Counted from the stretch's first letter, positions 46,037-54,971 are shown. The stretch is 64,000 nt of DNA from Thioalkalivibrio sp. ALMg11 (GCF_000377905.1 NZ_KB898876.1:1-64000), one strand, 5' to 3'. Made by a program: numbers and translations. The notes: a model not told the origin generated them from the sequence alone.

Positions 46037-46113
46037 GTTTTTTTGACGAGTGGCTGGCTGGTAGCTTGGCGCGCAGCGGGGGGCCGGAGATGGGGTTGGT
46101 ATCAGGGAATTCG

Positions 46114-47535
46114 ATGGCGGAGCAGCCGGAACAACAGACAAGAGAGCCCCTTCGGATCGTGGTGTTCTCTCGTCGCGCCGGATTTGCCGACGGGCTGGGC
46201 ACGAACCTGCCGAGCCAGCAGCATGCGGCTTACGAGGAATTGGCATCAACACCCGAATCCGGGGCGCGGACCGGCTTTGTCGTGGACCTGGAATCGTTGC
46301 CCGAGCCGCTGGAGCTGATTCGCGCGCTGCGGCAGCACCCCGAATGGCGAATGCAGTTAATTTGGACCCGGGGCGACGCCGGACCAGAGAGTCGAGCCCT
46401 GACAGACGGGGCCTTCGAGACGGTGGACAACCCGGGTGAACGTATCGAGACGTGCAGCGGCCGATTGCTGACCGCGAACGGAGGCCAGCCCGCACGCAGT
46501 CAGGATGACGTCTTGCTGACACTTCTGTGGAGCCACCCGCACATGAGCCTGCAGCCGGTGCGCGACTGGTCCGCCCCAGAGCTTTACCGCTACCCTTTGT
46601 TGGATGTGCTTCTGGAGGAGGACACCCCGGAGTTCTGGCTGCGGGGTTTGAAACAGCGGCGCTTGGTGGAGGGCCAGGAGCTGGTGGATCGCGTTCGCCT
46701 GTGCCCGGGGTGCCGCCATGGACACCTCAGTTTCGTGGATGTCTGTCCCGAATGCGACTCGCTGGATATTCGCACCGAGCCCGGACTGCACTGCTTCAGT
46801 TGCGGGCACGTGGCGCCGCAGCGGCTGTTCCAGGACAACGGGATGCTGAGTTGCCCGAACTGCCACGCGACCCTGCGGCATATTGGCGAGGATTATGACC
46901 GGCCGCTGGAGAATCATGTTTGCGGCGGCTGTCAGCACATGTTTATGGAAGGGCGTGTTCTGGCGCGCTGCATGGCCTGCGGCCAAGCCCATGACCCGGA
47001 TGCCCTGGAAGCGCTTGGAGTGTATCGCTACCGGTTGTCCGAGGCCGGCCGGCTGGTCGCGCGTACCGGCGACATCGGGGATTTGTACGGCGTCTTCGAT
47101 GAGATCAATTATGTTTCACCGGAGCACTTCGAGTTCTTCTTCGACTGGACGCTGAAACTTCGGGAGCGCCACGAAGAGATCCGGTTTGGCCTGATCCTGC
47201 TGCACCTGAACGGGTTGGCGCGGGTGATCGATACCCTGGGCCATGGTCGTGGCGCGGCCTTGGTGGATTCCTTCGCTGAGCGGGTCAAGGCACTAGTGCG
47301 CACAACTGATCTGGTGACGCGAACGGCAGATGATCGCATCTGGTTGTTGCTGCCGCAGACGTCGGCCGACGGGGTGGATGTATTGGCTGGCCGCCTGTCC
47401 CGGCTAATGGAAGACAGTGTAGAAGGGACTGCCCTGGATCGCTTGGGGCGGGTTTATCACGAGTCCTCGATCGGCATGAGCGAGGCCGAGGACGCAGCGG
47501 CCGTAATGGCCCGCCTGGTTTCGCGCTCGCAATGA
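46114..47535 (+). CDS. TackOD1 zinc-ribbon protein with degenerate GGDEF domain
   Basis: The protein is 473 aa from ATG 46114 (AGGGA upstream); TTG 46066 and ATG 46090 are in-frame alternatives. An N-terminal receiver-like region is followed by a TackOD1-type zinc-ribbon domain with CPGCRHGH, CPECDS, CFSCGH, CPNCHATL, CGGCQHMF and CMACGQAH. The C-terminal third (VSPEHFEFFFDWTLKLRERH onwards) has the GGDEF fold, but the signature is replaced by TADDRIWLLLP, so no cyclase activity is expected. It may sense or bind c-di-GMP or a partner and regulate the downstream GT2 synthase, which it overlaps by ATGA. Confidence 0.8.
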   Translation: MAEQPEQQTREPLRIVVFSRRAGFADGLGTNLPSQQHAAYEELASTPESGARTGFVVDLESLPEPLELIRALRQHPEWRMQLIWTRGDAGPESRALTDGAFETVDNPGERIETCSGRLLTANGGQPARSQDDVLLTLLWSHPHMSLQPVRDWSAPELYRYPLLDVLLEEDTPEFWLRGLKQRRLVEGQELVDRVRLCPGCRHGHLSFVDVCPECDSLDIRTEPGLHCFSCGHVAPQRLFQDNGMLSCPNCHATLRHIGEDYDRPLENHVCGGCQHMFMEGRVLARCMACGQAHDPDALEALGVYRYRLSEAGRLVARTGDIGDLYGVFDEINYVSPEHFEFFFDWTLKLRERHEEIRFGLILLHLNGLARVIDTLGHGRGAALVDSFAERVKALVRTTDLVTRTADDRIWLLLPQTSADGVDVLAGRLSRLMEDSVEGTALDRLGRVYHESSIGMSEAEDAAAVMARLVSRSQ

Positions 47536-48869
47536 CCGGTGTGCTGGAATTCCTGGCGCAGATCGTCGAGATACTCGGTGGGCTGTTTCACGAGACGAAT
47601 GCGCTCGCGTTGGCCTACATGTTCATCCCCTTCGTGGTGTTTCTGGAACTGCCCCTGAACCTGATGATCTGGTTGGGGGTGCTGCGCTACTACACGCGGC
47701 GAATCTACGCGGTTCCGACCCGCTACCCCTATACCCCGAGGGTGACCTGCATCATCACGTGTTACTCGGAAGGGGGGGGCGTGCGGGGAACGGTGCGCTC
47801 CATGCTTGAGCAGGTCTACCCGGGGCAGATCGAGATCATCGCGGTAGTGGATGGGGCCGACCAGAATCCGGCTACGCTTAGCGCCCTGCGCGCGATGGAA
47901 CCCGAGGTCGAGCGATATGCCAGCCGGAAGCTGGTAGTGGTGCCAAAGACGCCGCGCGGCGGACGGGTTTCGTCTCTGAACGCCGGTTTGCAGATGGCGC
48001 GCGGGGAGATCCTGCTGGCGGTGGACGCCGATACCTCTTTTGACAACACGATGGTGACCGAAGCGGCTGGGCATTTTCGAGATCCCAATGTGATCGCGGT
48101 GGCCGGTTCATTGCGGGTCCGCAATTGGCACGACAATCTCCTGACGCGTTTCCAGGCGCTCGAGTACATGATCACCATCCACCTTGCCAAGGTCGGGCTC
48201 GGAGAGTTTCACGGTATCAATAACATTTCGGGTGCGTTCGGTGTGTTTCGGACCGAGATGGTGCGCAAGATCGGGGGCTGGACGACCGGCTCGGCCGAGG
48301 ATCTCGACCTGACCCTCAGGCTCAAACAGTACTTCGGTCGCTACCCGGGCTTTCGCATCGCGTTCGAGCCGAGGGCCATGGGGCATACCGATTGCCCGGC
48401 GACCTGGAAGGGCTTCCTGCTCCAGCGCCTGCGCTGGGACGGCGATCTTTTCTACATGTACATGCGCAAGCACCGCGCAGCGTTTTCCGTGCGGCAAATG
48501 GGGTTCTGGAACGTGCTGTTGGGACTCTGGTACGGGATGTTGTTCCAGATGATCATGCCGGTGTTGATCGTGCTGTACACCCTTTGGCTGGTGGTCATGG
48601 TGGCGCCGGTGGTGGTGGTGGCCACCTTCATCATCATCATGGGCCTGTACGCCGTACTCACGGCACTCATGTACATCACCGCCTTGGTGTTCATCTCCGA
48701 ACGGCGGGGACGGGACCTTCGCTTGGCCTGGTTGATCCCGTTGTTCCCGTTCTTTGCGATGCTCATGCGGGTGTGGTCGCTGGTAGCCATCATCAACGAA
48801 TGGTGGCGCCACTCCAGTCAGGAATCCTCCATGGCACCCTGGTGGGTGCTGCGCAAGAGCAAGCGTTGA
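47532..48869 (+). CDS. Processive family 2 glycosyltransferase (exopolysaccharide synthase)
   Basis: This 445-aa membrane protein has an N-terminal TM region and a cytosolic GT2 domain with VTCIITCYSEGGGVRGTVRS, AVDADTSFD, the acceptor acid in SAEDLDLTLRL and the processive motif QRLRWDGD (QxxRW). Three or four C-terminal TM segments follow (MLFQMIMPVLIVLYTLWLVV). This layout matches cellulose/PNAG/alginate-type synthases that couple polymerisation to inner-membrane translocation. The sugar is unknown. No PilZ domain is fused. Confidence 0.88.
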   Translation: MTGVLEFLAQIVEILGGLFHETNALALAYMFIPFVVFLELPLNLMIWLGVLRYYTRRIYAVPTRYPYTPRVTCIITCYSEGGGVRGTVRSMLEQVYPGQIEIIAVVDGADQNPATLSALRAMEPEVERYASRKLVVVPKTPRGGRVSSLNAGLQMARGEILLAVDADTSFDNTMVTEAAGHFRDPNVIAVAGSLRVRNWHDNLLTRFQALEYMITIHLAKVGLGEFHGINNISGAFGVFRTEMVRKIGGWTTGSAEDLDLTLRLKQYFGRYPGFRIAFEPRAMGHTDCPATWKGFLLQRLRWDGDLFYMYMRKHRAAFSVRQMGFWNVLLGLWYGMLFQMIMPVLIVLYTLWLVVMVAPVVVVATFIIIMGLYAVLTALMYITALVFISERRGRDLRLAWLIPLFPFFAMLMRVWSLVAIINEWWRHSSQESSMAPWWVLRKSKR

Positions 48870-48870
48870 C

Positions 48871-50952
48871 ATGACCATACGATCCACATTGTTGGCCGCA
48901 GTCTGGCTGGCGGGCTTGGCCGCCGCCGGTGGTGTGCAGGCCGGAGACACCTTGCCGGGGTTGCTGGAGGAAGCACCGCAGGCCCCCTTGCTCCTGGCGG
49001 AACAGGCCGAGGTCGAACGCGCGCAGGCACAACAGGATCGCCAGTACGAAACGCACGGCTGGGAACTGTTCGGCAGCGCGGGTGGCGGCACTTTCGACGA
49101 GCCGGTCGCCGCCGGAATCAACCGGCGTTATACGGGTACGCGGGCCACTGTCGGCGTCCAACGGCCGCTGTTGGGCAGTGACGAACAGCAACGGCGAGCT
49201 ATCTGGCAGGCCCGGGGCGAGGCCGGTGCAGCGGCCTATCGCTACGAACAGCAGTTGCAGGAGGTTCGCCGTGACATCGGCGAGCAATACGCCCGGATCT
49301 GGCACGCGCAGCGTGCGCAGGCGCTCAGCAGCGCCATGCTCTCGGTGGAAGGCGAACTGGAACGTTCGCTGCAAGATCGGCGCGATCAGCAACTGATGCG
49401 CGATGACGAGATCGGGCGGTTGCAGCAAGGTCTCGACGTTGCGCGTCTGGATGCCGACCAGTCCGCGATTAGCGAGGACGAGGCGCGGCTCGAACTTGAG
49501 GGCTTGCTGGGCCGGCAGGTCTCTCTGCCGCGTGCCCCGGCATGGTTTGATCCGCAACGGATGACCTGTCCGCTGCAGGAAACGGACGGGGCGCCGGGCG
49601 TGCGGGCGGTCGAGGCAGAGCTCGAATCCGCGGTCGAACGCGAACGCCTGACCCGTTTCAATGCGCTGCAGTCCAACCTGCAGCTGCGCTACACGTCGAC
49701 CTACGAGGACGACGTCAGCCGCATGGGCAGCGGGCTGGAGTTTGTCTGGACCGTCTCCATCCCGTTGCGAGCTTTCGGCGGCGAGAGTCCTCTGCGTCGC
49801 GAGTTGCAGGCCGAGCAACGGCGCCTGCAACACCTGCGGGCCGCTGCCCAGGGCGCGGCGCTGCAACGTCAGGATCTGGCCGAGCGGCGCCTCGAGGTGC
49901 ATCAGCGTCGCCTGCAGGCTGTGACAGCCGAGCTGAAGCGTGCCGAGCGCAGTCTCCGCGTCGCACAAGAACGTACCGACGATGCGCTGGCCGTGCCTTG
50001 GGAGGAGTTGTTGCCGGCGCGTGCGGAATACTATCGCGCCGCCCGGGCCCGGCTGGATGCCACGCTGGAAATCTGGCTGGCACAGATTGCCTGCGACCAG
50101 TTCGTAACCGAGCAACCTCGAAGGCTGGAGCGAGTGGCGCAGGCGCGGCAGGTGCTGGGCGCGAGTGTCGAGGCAATAGCTTCCCTTGGCGGCCCGGTTC
50201 GTATCTATCTGTGGCAAAGCGCGCCGGTCATCGCGGGGCGTGATCCCGCCTTCTGGCCGGTGCTCGAACGTGCGGCCGTAGAGCACATTTGGTTGTCCCT
50301 GGACGGCGACCAGATCGGGCGGTATGTCTCTTCCGCGGACCCTCTGGAACGGTTCATCCGTGAGGCGCGCCGGCGTGGGGTATCCGTCGGCCTGTTGCTG
50401 GGTGAACCGACCTGGACCCTGCCCGAACACCGCAAGGATCTGGTGGCGATCATTGAATCTCTGGCGCATGTCGATTTTGCCGACCTGCATCTCGACATAG
50501 AGATCGATCAACTCAATCGCTATGTTCACGACCGCGACTGGTTGCTGGAGGAGTGGCTGCAAACGGTGGCGGCCGCTGCCAATGCCTCCCCCTGGCGCGT
50601 CGGGATTAGTGCCCATCCGCGGGACTTCGGTGACCCGGATCGTTGTCTTGGCTGCGAATTCGCCGAGCGCGGCGTAGATGAAATCGCGCTGATGACCTAT
50701 GCCACCCGTCCGCAGACGCTGGAAGCGCAATTGGAGCCAATCTTGCAGCGCGGGGCCGGAGTTGACTGGGTGCTGGCGCAAAGCGTGGAGCGCGCGTTGC
50801 CACCGGAGAACAGCTGGTTCCAGCATGGCTGGAACGCCATGCAATCGGGGCTGAATGCCGCACTCGAACCACTTGGGCGTCGGGAACTACCGATTGCGAT
50901 CCAGAGCTATTCCGATTTGAAGGATATGTGGGCCGATGAAGATTCGCTTTGA
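48871..50952 (+). CDS. TolC-like outer-membrane protein fused to a glycosidase-like domain
   Basis: This 693-aa protein has a signal peptide ending near ...GVQAGDT (about 25). Residues ~30-425 form a TolC/OEP-type alpha-helical coiled-coil repeat with two similar halves. From ~435 a second domain begins (GPVRIYLWQSAPVIAG), with HLDIEIDQLNRY, WRVGISAHPRDFG and EIALMTYATRP, which has the layout of a TIM-barrel glycosidase of GH18-like type. The fusion would put a polymer-trimming or -guiding domain on the export channel. It starts one base after the GT2 stop and overlaps the HlyD gene by 17 bases. Confidence 0.75.
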   Translation: MTIRSTLLAAVWLAGLAAAGGVQAGDTLPGLLEEAPQAPLLLAEQAEVERAQAQQDRQYETHGWELFGSAGGGTFDEPVAAGINRRYTGTRATVGVQRPLLGSDEQQRRAIWQARGEAGAAAYRYEQQLQEVRRDIGEQYARIWHAQRAQALSSAMLSVEGELERSLQDRRDQQLMRDDEIGRLQQGLDVARLDADQSAISEDEARLELEGLLGRQVSLPRAPAWFDPQRMTCPLQETDGAPGVRAVEAELESAVERERLTRFNALQSNLQLRYTSTYEDDVSRMGSGLEFVWTVSIPLRAFGGESPLRRELQAEQRRLQHLRAAAQGAALQRQDLAERRLEVHQRRLQAVTAELKRAERSLRVAQERTDDALAVPWEELLPARAEYYRAARARLDATLEIWLAQIACDQFVTEQPRRLERVAQARQVLGASVEAIASLGGPVRIYLWQSAPVIAGRDPAFWPVLERAAVEHIWLSLDGDQIGRYVSSADPLERFIREARRRGVSVGLLLGEPTWTLPEHRKDLVAIIESLAHVDFADLHLDIEIDQLNRYVHDRDWLLEEWLQTVAAAANASPWRVGISAHPRDFGDPDRCLGCEFAERGVDEIALMTYATRPQTLEAQLEPILQRGAGVDWVLAQSVERALPPENSWFQHGWNAMQSGLNAALEPLGRRELPIAIQSYSDLKDMWADEDSL

Positions 50953-51982
50953 CAGCAGTGACCGGCGCCAAGCCGGACAGGACGGTGGTCTCAAGGTCCG
51001 CTACGGGCCGGCTCGACGGGCCGCGTTTCGCCTGCGCTGGTACTTGATTCTGCTGCTGGTTGCGAGCCCGGTGCTCTATTTTCTGTATTCGCTGATCAGT
51101 GATCAGCTGTCCACCGAGGTGCCGGCGATGATCTGGTACCCACAGCATCAACTGCTAGCTCGGGTACCCGGTTTTGTCGATTCGGTGGAGGTTGATCGCT
51201 GGGAGCGTGTGAGCCGAGGCGACACGGTAGTGGTGCAGCGGAGCCCGGAACTGGAGAGCAAGCTGCGTCAGATCGAGATAGACCTGGTACAGCTGCGTGA
51301 GCGGGTCGCCCATACGCACCGTGAGCGCCAGGCGGACCTGAACCATCGGATCGGCCTGTTGAAGGACAACTTGGGAGATGTGCGCGGGCATGAGGCGCGC
51401 CTCATGCGGCTGATCGATCGCCGTTCGGCGTCCCAAGGGGAAATGCTGCCGGTGCGAACCGAGCGCGCACGCATCGAAGAGCGCTTGGCGGAACTCGAGG
51501 GCGAGCTGCAGCGGCTCCCGCAGGCAGACTCGGTGGAGACCTGGCCCGACACCCTCCAGGTTCGCTACGACCAGCTCCAGTCCGAGCGCTCCGAACTGCA
51601 ACAGGAGCGGGCGCTGCTGGTGAAGGAGGCCGATCTCGACGGGGTGATCACCGAACTCTTGGCGGAGCCCGGCCAGTTCGTGACCGTGGGAACCCCGTTG
51701 TTGCGCTACAGCGGCACCCGGCTGCGGATTGTGGCGTACATCGAGCCGCGCCATCTGGAGCGCCGTATCGTGCCGGGCCGCGAGGTGGCCCTGATTCTAC
51801 CGGACCGTACACACCGGGCCGCTGTGGTGTGGGATACGGTGGGTGCCGCCGACCGCCTGCCGGCCGAGCTGCGCACCGGTATTGGCGATGGCCAGAGCGC
51901 CGTGCCGGTGATCGTCGAGCCGGAAGAGGCCCTTCCGGAGATTTGGCGCGTGGATCGACTGCCGGTGCGTGTGAAATTCTGA
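50936..51982 (+). CDS. HlyD-like membrane fusion protein of the polysaccharide operon
   Basis: This 348-aa protein has a short basic cytosolic N-terminus, one TM segment (YLILLLVASPVLYFLYSLIS) and a biotinyl-lipoyl-like domain split by a coiled coil (about 100-220, ELESKLRQIEIDLVQLRERV). A beta-barrel segment (LVKEADLDGVITELLAEPGQ) follows. It probably connects the GT2 synthase to the TolC-type channel, as Alg44- or HlyD-type periplasmic proteins do. Its ATG lies within the preceding gene. Confidence 0.83.
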   Translation: MKIRFDSSDRRQAGQDGGLKVRYGPARRAAFRLRWYLILLLVASPVLYFLYSLISDQLSTEVPAMIWYPQHQLLARVPGFVDSVEVDRWERVSRGDTVVVQRSPELESKLRQIEIDLVQLRERVAHTHRERQADLNHRIGLLKDNLGDVRGHEARLMRLIDRRSASQGEMLPVRTERARIEERLAELEGELQRLPQADSVETWPDTLQVRYDQLQSERSELQQERALLVKEADLDGVITELLAEPGQFVTVGTPLLRYSGTRLRIVAYIEPRHLERRIVPGREVALILPDRTHRAAVVWDTVGAADRLPAELRTGIGDGQSAVPVIVEPEEALPEIWRVDRLPVRVKF

Positions 51983-52154: not shown

Positions 52155-52295
52155 GTGCGACTGCGGCTCCGTTATCTCATCCCGCCTGGATTTGGGTTCA
52201 TCAAGCCGGGGCTCGACGAGTATTGGCGCGAAAAGGCTGAATACCCGGGATTTGGAATGGCGCGTGCTCGACGCAAACTGCTACCATTGATGTAA
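52155..52295 (+). CDS. Possible small basic ORF coupled to haem oxygenase
   Basis: A 46-aa frame from GTG 52155 ends in TAA that overlaps the haem oxygenase start as TAATG. It encodes a basic/aromatic peptide (PPGFGFIKPGLDEYWREKAE, then ARARRKLLPLM). No SD or family is recognised. It could be a leader peptide coupling translation, or the tail of a lost gene. The remaining 51983-52154 gap shows nothing else. Confidence 0.3.
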   Translation: MRLRLRYLIPPGFGFIKPGLDEYWREKAEYPGFGMARARRKLLPLM

Positions 52296-52903
52296 TGACA
52301 AGGTATCAACGGGGGCGCGTGCACCAGGCCTTGCGCAGGGGCACGGCGGCAGCGCACAAGGCGCTGGATCATCACCGGTTGATGCAGCGGCTGACAAGCA
52401 GTGATCTCACCCGCGAGCAGTACGCTGAATCGCTCGCGGCCATGTGCCGACCGCACGCGCGACTGGAGCGGTGGGTTCATGAAAGCCGCCATCATTTTGA
52501 GTCGGGACTTGAGCTGTCGCCACGTCTCGAGCGACTGGAAGCAGACCTGTTCGAGTTGGGCCAGCCCGCTCCCGTTCCCCCGGCCTCGCAGACCCCGCCA
52601 GACCCTTCGGGCGGACGTGCGGCTTGGTGGGGCCGGGTTTACGTGCTGGAGGGGTCGCGTCACGGCAGCGCGGTGATTGCCAGGTGCATCCATTCCAGTC
52701 TGGGCGATACCGCGCCTTGCCGTTTCTTCGGGGAGGCCATGGTGCCCGGCGCCTCCAGGACCTTGCTGGCGATGCTCGAGCGCGAGCTGGAAGATCATGA
52801 CGCTCTCGAGCAGGCTGTAGTGGGGGCCCGAGAGGCGTTCGCCATCTACCAGGCCGAACTGGAGACCTTCGATAGCCGCAAAGATGCCGTCGAAATGCGC
52901 TAA
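52295..52903 (+). CDS. bphO: Bacterial haem oxygenase (BphO-like)
   Basis: This 202-aa protein has the proximal-haem histidine in TAAAHKALDHH (H21) and the distal helix motif WGRVYVLEGSRHGSAVIAR. It converts haem to biliverdin, the chromophore of the phytochrome encoded 41 bases downstream. The pairing is a classic bphO-bphP unit. Confidence 0.88.
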   Translation: MTRYQRGRVHQALRRGTAAAHKALDHHRLMQRLTSSDLTREQYAESLAAMCRPHARLERWVHESRHHFESGLELSPRLERLEADLFELGQPAPVPPASQTPPDPSGGRAAWWGRVYVLEGSRHGSAVIARCIHSSLGDTAPCRFFGEAMVPGASRTLLAMLERELEDHDALEQAVVGAREAFAIYQAELETFDSRKDAVEMR

Positions 52904-52943
52904 ATTAACCGCCCGCAGCAACTCCCCGAAGGAGATGAAGGAT

Positions 52944-54971
52944 ATGGACGAGCCGGAACTGGAAGCCGCGCTCGAGGCTTGCGAGCGCGAGCCGGTGCAT
53001 ATCCCGGGAGCGATTCAGCCGCACGGTGCGCTGATTGCCATGGACGAGCAGCTCCAGGAGGTTCGCCAGGTTAGCGCCAACCTCGAATCCATCCTCGGTA
53101 TGCGGGTGGCGGATGCGTTGGCCATGACACCCGAGCGGCTGTTCACTCGCCGCTGGCTCGATCAGATCCGCACCCAGCTTGAGTCCCCGAACCGTTACGG
53201 TGCGATGATCGTGTCGCTGCGGATCCGCGGCCGGTCACAGCGGTTTCGCCTGCTCTCGTATCGCAGCGGTGCGCGGGTGGTGGCCGAATTCGAACCGATT
53301 TCCGGCAATCCCGAGCGCTGGCTGTTCGGCGCCATGGCCGACTGGCAGACGGAGCTGTCCGGTCATACGACCCGTGACGGGCTGCTGCGGGCGCTCACCG
53401 CCCTGGTGCGCGAACTGGCCGGCTACGATCGGGTGATGATCTATCGGTTCGACGAGGACTGGAACGGCAGCGTTGTCGCCGAAAGCCTGGCCGACGGCGC
53501 CGACAGCTACCTCGGCCACCACTTTCCGGCCAGCGACATTCCTGCCCAGGTGCGGCAGCTCTACAGCATCAAGCGCGTGCGCGACATCCCGGATGCAACG
53601 GCCGAAGCGGTGCCGCTGGTGCCGGCAAGCGACCCGGTCGACGATTCAGCCCTCGACCTCTCGCACGGCATTCTGCGTGCCGTCGCACCGATCCATGTCA
53701 CCTACCTGGCCAACATGGGTGTGGTCGCCTCGATGTCGATTGCACTGCATCTGGATGGTCGGCTGTGGGGGTTGTTGGCCTGCCATGCAACGTCACCCAA
53801 TATCCTGTCGCCGGCGCTGCGTGATGCCCTGCGTGCCATGGTGCAGACCGCCTGCTTTCAGCTCGAATTGATCCAGGCACGCGAGGAAGCCGTGCTGATT
53901 CAGCGGGCCAACGACAGCCGCGACGTCCTGGTCGACGAACGTGGCGAGTTTCCCGAGCCGGAAGAACTGCTGGCGCGACACGGCAAGGACTGGCTGCAGG
54001 TCTTCCGGGCGAGTGGCGCGGTGCTGGCCGCCGGCGATCAGAGCGCCGGCGTGGGCACTGTGCCGGATGCCGAGTCGATCAATGGCATTGTCGCCTGGTT
54101 GAGCCAGCATCACTCCAGTGAGCTGGCCTGGTCGTCGAACGAGCTCGGCGGGACCGAGCTGGGAACGTTCTGTGAACCCGCCCGGGCCGCGGGCTTGCTG
54201 GCGGTACCGCTGCCGATGCGGAATCCGCGTGACGCCTGGCTGCTGTTCTTTCGGTCGGAGAAGGCCGAAACCCGCATCTGGGCGGGCAATCCCGACAAGA
54301 CCATCGACCGGCAAAGTGGCCGACTGTCGCCGCGCGAGAGCTTCGCTTCCTGGAAGGAAATCGTGCGCGGACAAAGTGCCCGGTGGCGATCGGTGGAACT
54401 GCGTGCGGCGACCGACCTGGCCAGCGATCTCGCGGTGCTGATCGCGGCCGGCGAAATCAGTCAGCTCAACCAGCGGCTCGAGCGCCTGGCTACCCGTGAC
54501 CATCTCACCGGCCTGTGGAATCGCTATCGCATGGAGGGGGCGATCGAACAGGAGGTTGCCGCGGCCGAACGCTACGGTCGACCTTGCGCGCTGCTCATGT
54601 TCGATATCGACCATTTCAAGCGTTTTAACGACACCTGGGGACACGATGCCGGCGACGAGGTGCTGGTGAGAATTGCAACGACTGTCTCGACCCAGATGCG
54701 CGACACCGATCTCGCGGGTCGCTGGGGGGGTGAAGAATTCCTCGTACTGGCCGCCAACACCGATCTCGAGGGTGCGGCGCGTCTGGCGGAACGGCTGCGC
54801 GCGGCGATCGCGGCCCTGGAGATCCGCGACTATGGCCATGTGACTGCCAGCTTCGGCGTGGCGGTATACCGGGAGGGCGATCAGAGCCGCGACATCGTCA
54901 AGCGCGCGGACCTCGCCCTGTATGCCGCCAAGGAGGGCGGACGCAACCGAGTCGAAGTCAGCGCCGACTGA
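52944..54971 (+). CDS. bphP: Bacteriophytochrome diguanylate cyclase
   Basis: The protein is 675 aa from ATG 52944 (AAGGAG nine bases upstream; ATG 52935 abuts it). The PAS domain carries the biliverdin-binding Cys13 ahead of EPVHIPGAIQPHGAL. The GAF domain has HHFPASDIPAQVRQLY and PIHVTYLANMGV, followed by a PHY domain. The C-terminal GGDEF domain has an intact active site RWGGEEF (593-599) and an I-site RDTD (586-589), so it should make c-di-GMP under product feedback, gated by red/far-red light. No histidine kinase or EAL domain is attached. Confidence 0.95.
   Translation: MDEPELEAALEACEREPVHIPGAIQPHGALIAMDEQLQEVRQVSANLESILGMRVADALAMTPERLFTRRWLDQIRTQLESPNRYGAMIVSLRIRGRSQRFRLLSYRSGARVVAEFEPISGNPERWLFGAMADWQTELSGHTTRDGLLRALTALVRELAGYDRVMIYRFDEDWNGSVVAESLADGADSYLGHHFPASDIPAQVRQLYSIKRVRDIPDATAEAVPLVPASDPVDDSALDLSHGILRAVAPIHVTYLANMGVVASMSIALHLDGRLWGLLACHATSPNILSPALRDALRAMVQTACFQLELIQAREEAVLIQRANDSRDVLVDERGEFPEPEELLARHGKDWLQVFRASGAVLAAGDQSAGVGTVPDAESINGIVAWLSQHHSSELAWSSNELGGTELGTFCEPARAAGLLAVPLPMRNPRDAWLLFFRSEKAETRIWAGNPDKTIDRQSGRLSPRESFASWKEIVRGQSARWRSVELRAATDLASDLAVLIAAGEISQLNQRLERLATRDHLTGLWNRYRMEGAIEQEVAAAERYGRPCALLMFDIDHFKRFNDTWGHDAGDEVLVRIATTVSTQMRDTDLAGRWGGEEFLVLAANTDLEGAARLAERLRAAIAALEIRDYGHVTASFGVAVYREGDQSRDIVKRADLALYAAKEGGRNRVEVSAD

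Follow-up and report, generated by a model that had tools for sequence, protein, structure and literature searches.

The four adjacent genes at positions 46114–51982 of Thioalkalivibrio sp. ALMg11 raise the question of whether they encode one machine that makes and exports a polysaccharide, and whether this machine belongs to a system that already has a name. The window, i.e., the whole stretch of 64,000 nucleotides analyzed here, belongs to contig 6 of the 3.04 Mb genome. An earlier note on this DNA had described four genes joined by an ATGA overlap, a 1-base gap, and a 17-base overlap, and the gene calls and Pfam matched this layout exactly. All four lie on the plus strand and encode a TackOD1-GGDEF protein, a GT2 glycosyltransferase, a fusion of a TolC-type channel with a glycosidase-like domain (TolC-GH), and a HlyD-type adaptor; the 4-base ATGA overlap is at the TackOD1-GGDEF/GT2 junction, the gap between GT2 and TolC-GH, and the 17-base overlap between TolC-GH and HlyD. 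In five other Thioalkalivibrio species, all four genes were found in unchanged order, with identities of 56–94%, and among 30 genomes of the genus the operon was either complete (6 genomes) or missing, with TackOD1, GT2, and TolC-GH agreeing genome by genome. This conserved order and all-or-none occurrence indicated that the four reading frames are not due to chance. Promoter and terminator scans gave only chance-level results. We consider it likely that the operon is a complete c-di-GMP-gated, synthase-dependent exopolysaccharide secretion system.

The first gene (46114–47535, 473 aa from the ATG at 46114, with a TTG at 46066 as the alternative start) encodes the proposed c-di-GMP receptor. 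Its TackOD1 domain (46495–47037) was recognized by Pfam as PF18551 with 204.7 bits against a cut-off of 32 (1.2e-60), and a GGDEF domain was also matched (1.4e-12). The homologue alignment contained 11 Cys columns conserved at ≥80%, and the domain was named in archaea for a region with 11 conserved cysteines and an obscure function (PMC5847659). The GGDEF domain had been called degenerate in the earlier note, and this proved right for the catalytic site only: the GG[DE]EF motif of active diguanylate cyclases was absent from the window protein, which has ADDRI at this place, and from every homologue covering the site, where the sequence differs from group to group, but the RxxD five residues upstream was kept in all homologues covering the region. 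In the window it reads RTTD (47299–47310), a predicted c-di-GMP I-site. PelD and BcsE, which also have a degenerate GGDEF and a retained RxxD, are proven c-di-GMP receptors (PMC8461298). As the GGDEF motif is lost but the RxxD is kept, the protein is, judging from its sequence, probably a c-di-GMP receptor as in PelD. Public records of Aeromonas caviae and Plesiomonas do annotate it as a diguanylate cyclase; a working enzyme is nevertheless highly improbable, with GG[DE]EF kept by no homologue and ADDRI in its place here, and the annotation is probably wrong. Stand-alone genes for TackOD1-degenerate GGDEF proteins with the RxxD and no GT2 neighbor were observed at two loci (L060, 8914–10263; L046, 8624–10015), and it is possible that these have other targets.

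The second gene (47532–48869) encodes a protein of 445 aa with membrane spans at both ends, and its identity as a GT2, claimed beforehand, was borne out by the Pfam match to Glyco_tranf_2_3 (3e-19). The SAEDLD and QRLRW motifs and three strong hydrophobic segments correspond to the ED, QxxRW, and membrane-span features of a predicted processive synthase. The best curated match was PgaC_IcaA (NCBIfam, 9e-43), followed by NodC (1e-20), and PgaC_IcaA was likewise the nearest for the GT2s of the four relatives tested. The score for PgaC/IcaA (TIGR03937) was 146.8 bits, about a third of the cut-off of 422.3, and that for the cellulose synthase CelA/BcsA (TIGR03030) was 18.9 bits, against a cut-off of 699.1. 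The fourth gene (50936–51982) encodes the periplasmic adaptor of the HlyD type, which has a single membrane span at its N-terminus and a PF13437 (HlyD_3) match of 27.2 bits over a cut-off of 22.2. In the four operon proteins, Pfam detected neither a PilZ domain nor a polysaccharide deacetylase domain (PF01522, CE4), and three PF01522 matches were found elsewhere in the same genome. Gene calls and Pfam revealed no acyltransferase and no ABC or MFS pump in the operon.

The third gene (48871–50952) encodes the fusion, and its product of 693 aa is about 250 aa longer than a TolC. The channel part (48871–50170), which begins with a signal-like segment, matched PF02321 (TolC/OEP) with 24.8 bits over a cut-off of 22 and resembled OprM, OprN, and CmeC in Foldseek. 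The C-terminal 250 residues had no Pfam match, a query with the single fusion sequence found nothing of use among solved structures, and the barrel of one relative (L054) as the sole query had no match. However, a profile of 13 homologues retrieved 10yv_A, a putative glycosidase deposit from Cellulomonas fimi, with an E value of 2.6e-7, together with a weak match to a GH18 chitinase. In agreement, the alignment-based model of this domain (50191–50949; pLDDT 88, pTM 0.88) showed eight alternating strands and helices, i.e., a (beta/alpha)8 barrel. After re-ranking, Cwp19 was its nearest fold (Z 18.3), followed by a chitinase of family GH18 (17.4), a putative one (17.3), and the glycosidase domain of PgaB (16.6). 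A model of the full-length fusion, in which the TolC part was of low confidence, gave nearly the same list. Foldseek alone placed unrelated barrels on top (isocitrate-lyase-like, MTHFR), so that the GH18/PgaB-like assignment was decided by re-ranking and motifs, and its margin over other glycosidase barrels is modest. That the C-terminal domain has a fold of carbohydrate-active type, a point set beforehand as a test, was thus upheld by the eight-stranded barrel and the 10yv_A profile match.

In GH18 enzymes, strand 4 ends at the catalytic Glu and strand 6 at a substrate-binding Tyr. The corresponding places here hold HLDIE (50488–50502; D542, E544) and MTY (50692–50700; M608, Y610). HLDxE was present in 26 of the 26 fusion frames checked, and one more relative (L051), whose fusion is broken by a frameshift, has NLDLE instead. 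Against the GH18 motif DxxDxDxE, the window protein has A-H-D-E for D-D-D-E, keeping the last two acids (D542 and E544) on strand 4. The claim that a channel and a glycosidase-like domain are fused was thus confirmed, with the OEP match over its cut-off, the barrel fold at the C-terminus, and both kept in relatives. The fused channel had also been regarded as unusual; the fusion is real, but it is a regular component of an operon found widely, not an oddity of this strain. Since the termini of TolC are established to be periplasmic, the barrel is expected on the periplasmic side.

Taking the computed gene order, co-inheritance, domain folds, and motifs kept or lost as observed, we infer how c-di-GMP binding, the polymer, the complex, and the barrel, with its activity and periplasmic site, would fit together in the export of a polysaccharide. 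In the proposed mechanism, c-di-GMP would dock at the RxxD of the catalytically dead GGDEF in the soluble TackOD1 protein, which would then contact the GT2 and switch it on. The GT2 would polymerize an activated sugar, probably HexNAc by analogy with PgaC, its closest relative, and thread the chain across the inner membrane. The HlyD adaptor would reach across the periplasm and connect to a TolC-type channel in trimeric form, the two standing in place of the usual porin, and the GH18/PgaB-like barrels on the periplasmic C-termini of the channel would act on the chain at the point of export by cutting, trimming, or clearing it, a role modeled on the hydrolase domains of PgaB and PelA. The substrate is probably a HexNAc polymer, because three soft pointers lead there: the proximity of the GT2 to PgaC and NodC, that of the barrel to GH18-type enzymes and PgaB, and one locus (L074) where a TolC-GH gene lies beside a deacetylase.

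Other readings of the same parts were also weighed. As the barrel retains two of the four acidic residues of the GH18 motif and no more, it may bind sugar rather than cut it. It is possible, although we doubt it, that it is no enzyme but a collar that binds sugar or has a structural role, which would be compatible with the rest of the proposed mechanism; concanavalin B, a chitinase-like protein without known activity, is also close in fold (Z 15.8). Against this, D542, E544, M608, and Y610, the expected GH18-type active-site positions, vary little or not at all in a family whose remaining sequence falls to 17–30% identity. A second reading concerns the polymer, which could be a beta-glucan, either cellulose-like or mixed-linkage. 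The rhizobial BgsA/BgsB system consists of a GT2 plus a membrane-fusion protein. A similar part list is also found in the cyanobacterial XcsA/XcsB/TolC model, with the separate endoglucanase XcsC (PMC12430437). This reading is unlikely, with a GT2 that scores far higher for PgaC_IcaA than for CelA, no PilZ domain detected in the four operon proteins, and a barrel nearest to GH18-type and PgaB hydrolases.

It is also conceivable, but distinctly improbable, that the GT2, whose second-best curated match is NodC, works like that enzyme and forms a short oligosaccharide or a glycolipid, which HlyD and TolC export with no biofilm polymer involved. HlyD/TolC pairs often carry small cargo, which would suit this reading. 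Without an acyltransferase or an ABC or MFS pump, however, the GT2 itself must translocate the product, which fits a processive synthase, and a glycosidase domain at the exit suits a chain. We retain the c-di-GMP-gated exopolysaccharide system as the preferred reading.

A search for the same four-gene synteny, suggested in the earlier note, showed that it recurs in the genus, in another family, in another class, and on an A. caviae plasmid. TackOD1 was over the cut-off in 19 of 369 gammaproteobacterial genomes. Sampling across the class gave 18 full TackOD1 loci, the window included; GT2 and HlyD genes adjoin TackOD1 in 16 of these, and the TolC-GH fusion is also present in 10, in two gene orders: TackOD1-GT2-TolCGH-HlyD (type A) and TolCGH-HlyD-TackOD1-GT2 (type B). 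Type C loci, with GT2 and HlyD and no TolC-GH, make up about a third (6/18), which means that some of these systems do without the fused channel. At one of these loci (L049, 12471–13382), the next gene encodes a GH16 glycosidase, perhaps a stand-in for the missing hydrolase. In one other family, TackOD1 was found in 33 of 198 genomes, and all 12 loci examined (L072, L073, L091–L100) had the four genes in type A order; with L044, also a four-gene locus, at least 13 genomes of that family carry the set. With the barrel profile, type B loci were also recovered from another class within the phylum. In the trees of GT2 and of TackOD1 alike, type B was separated from A and C with full support, and the remaining groups matched closely, indicating that the genes travel together. 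The alignment showed a GLDGD variant in the type B GT2 group.

The complete four-gene set was also found on the mobilizable 29 kb A. caviae plasmid pKAM329_3 (L080, 7944–13766), and its GT2 is 94% identical to that of a locus of the other family (L093). On the plasmid, the operon adjoins ParA, toxin-antitoxin, and recombinase genes. A plasmid search with the type B fusion gave no match. A related genome (G008) has the same flanking genes, for an ABC-F protein and a heme oxygenase, and no cassette between them; this slot is an exchangeable locus. Its place in G008 is taken by a 339-aa membrane protein that by eye is a cation exchanger (L106, 4547–5566). Among individual loci, a type B one with all four genes (L057, 5904–11664), counted in the 16 above, has several frame breaks or frameshifts, either from sequencing error or from decay, L079 gave a weak barrel match of 36 bits, and L074 (6646–10736) has a TolC-GH gene with no TackOD1 or GT2 nearby, adjoining a gene for a 650-aa polysaccharide deacetylase (PF01522, 1.8e-11).

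Downstream of the operon, also on the plus strand, lie a heme oxygenase gene (bphO, 52295–52903; PF01126, 2e-6), probably not a part of the machine, and, overlapping it, a gene for a PadC-type bacteriophytochrome diguanylate cyclase (52884–54971; best PDB match 5llw, 1e-141). A Thioalkalivibrio PadC has been studied (PMC6433076). The pair occurs in three of the 30 genus genomes, two with the operon and one without. As a machine part, the cyclase was rejected, being present beside two of the six Thioalkalivibrio cassettes and in one genome that lacks the cassette; it is a possible red-light source of c-di-GMP for the operon.

Whether this synteny had been described under a named polysaccharide was also set beforehand as a test, and open-access full-text searches returned no such system and no paper naming this gene set. 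A survey of synthase-dependent systems covers five polymers, and HlyD and TolC do not appear in it (PMC7112194). One of the closest known systems is the PNAG system PgaABCD, which is activated by c-di-GMP (PMC8461298), supplies the nearest curated GT2, and has the PgaB barrel hydrolase, of the same fold type, in its periplasmic export path. However, the operon here has no deacetylase or PgaD, its GT2 is far under the PgaC cut-off, TolC and HlyD stand instead of the PgaA porin, and the proposed receptor, TackOD1-GGDEF, is a protein on its own. The Pel system (PelA-G) shares a degenerate GGDEF receptor with a kept RxxD (PelD; PMC8461298) and a hydrolase, PelA, acting before export (PMC12022489), but it has the soluble GT4 PelF, PelE/PelG, and the PelB/PelC export complex, and PelD carries a GAF domain and membrane helices where TackOD1 stands here. 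The XcsA/XcsB/TolC cellulose model also combines a GT2, a HlyD-type adaptor, a TolC-type channel, and a glycosidase (PMC12430437), whereas its synthase bears PilZ, its channel lies outside the operon, and its glycosidase is a separate endoglucanase. The zetaproteobacterial sfz stalk cluster, which is c-di-GMP-linked and has a GT2 for an exopolysaccharide, was ruled out as the identity of the operon, since its gene set differs: it has the BcsB-like Sfz1 and a GT2 fused to an EpsE-like domain, with no mention of TolC or HlyD (PMC8250860). The single parts are of known kinds; what appears to be undescribed is how they are combined, together with the channel-glycosidase fusion and the use of TackOD1 in a receptor. 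We see an even chance that the operon represents a further class of synthase-dependent system beside cellulose, acetylated cellulose, PNAG, alginate, and Pel, in which a synthase gated by a TackOD1 zinc-ribbon/GGDEF protein works with a HlyD/TolC conduit that resembles a tripartite pump and bears its own glycosidase, and which has spread between families as one cassette.

If this is right, a sizeable share of gammaproteobacteria would have an unrecognized biofilm-polymer machine, in operons that are currently annotated only as "diguanylate cyclase, glycosyltransferase, TolC, HlyD". TolC-type conduits are usually linked to drugs and proteins; here, one would be used for a polysaccharide, with a processing enzyme fused in. 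The TackOD1 domain (PMC5847659) would gain a testable role, and the location on a mobilizable A. caviae plasmid shows that the operon can move.
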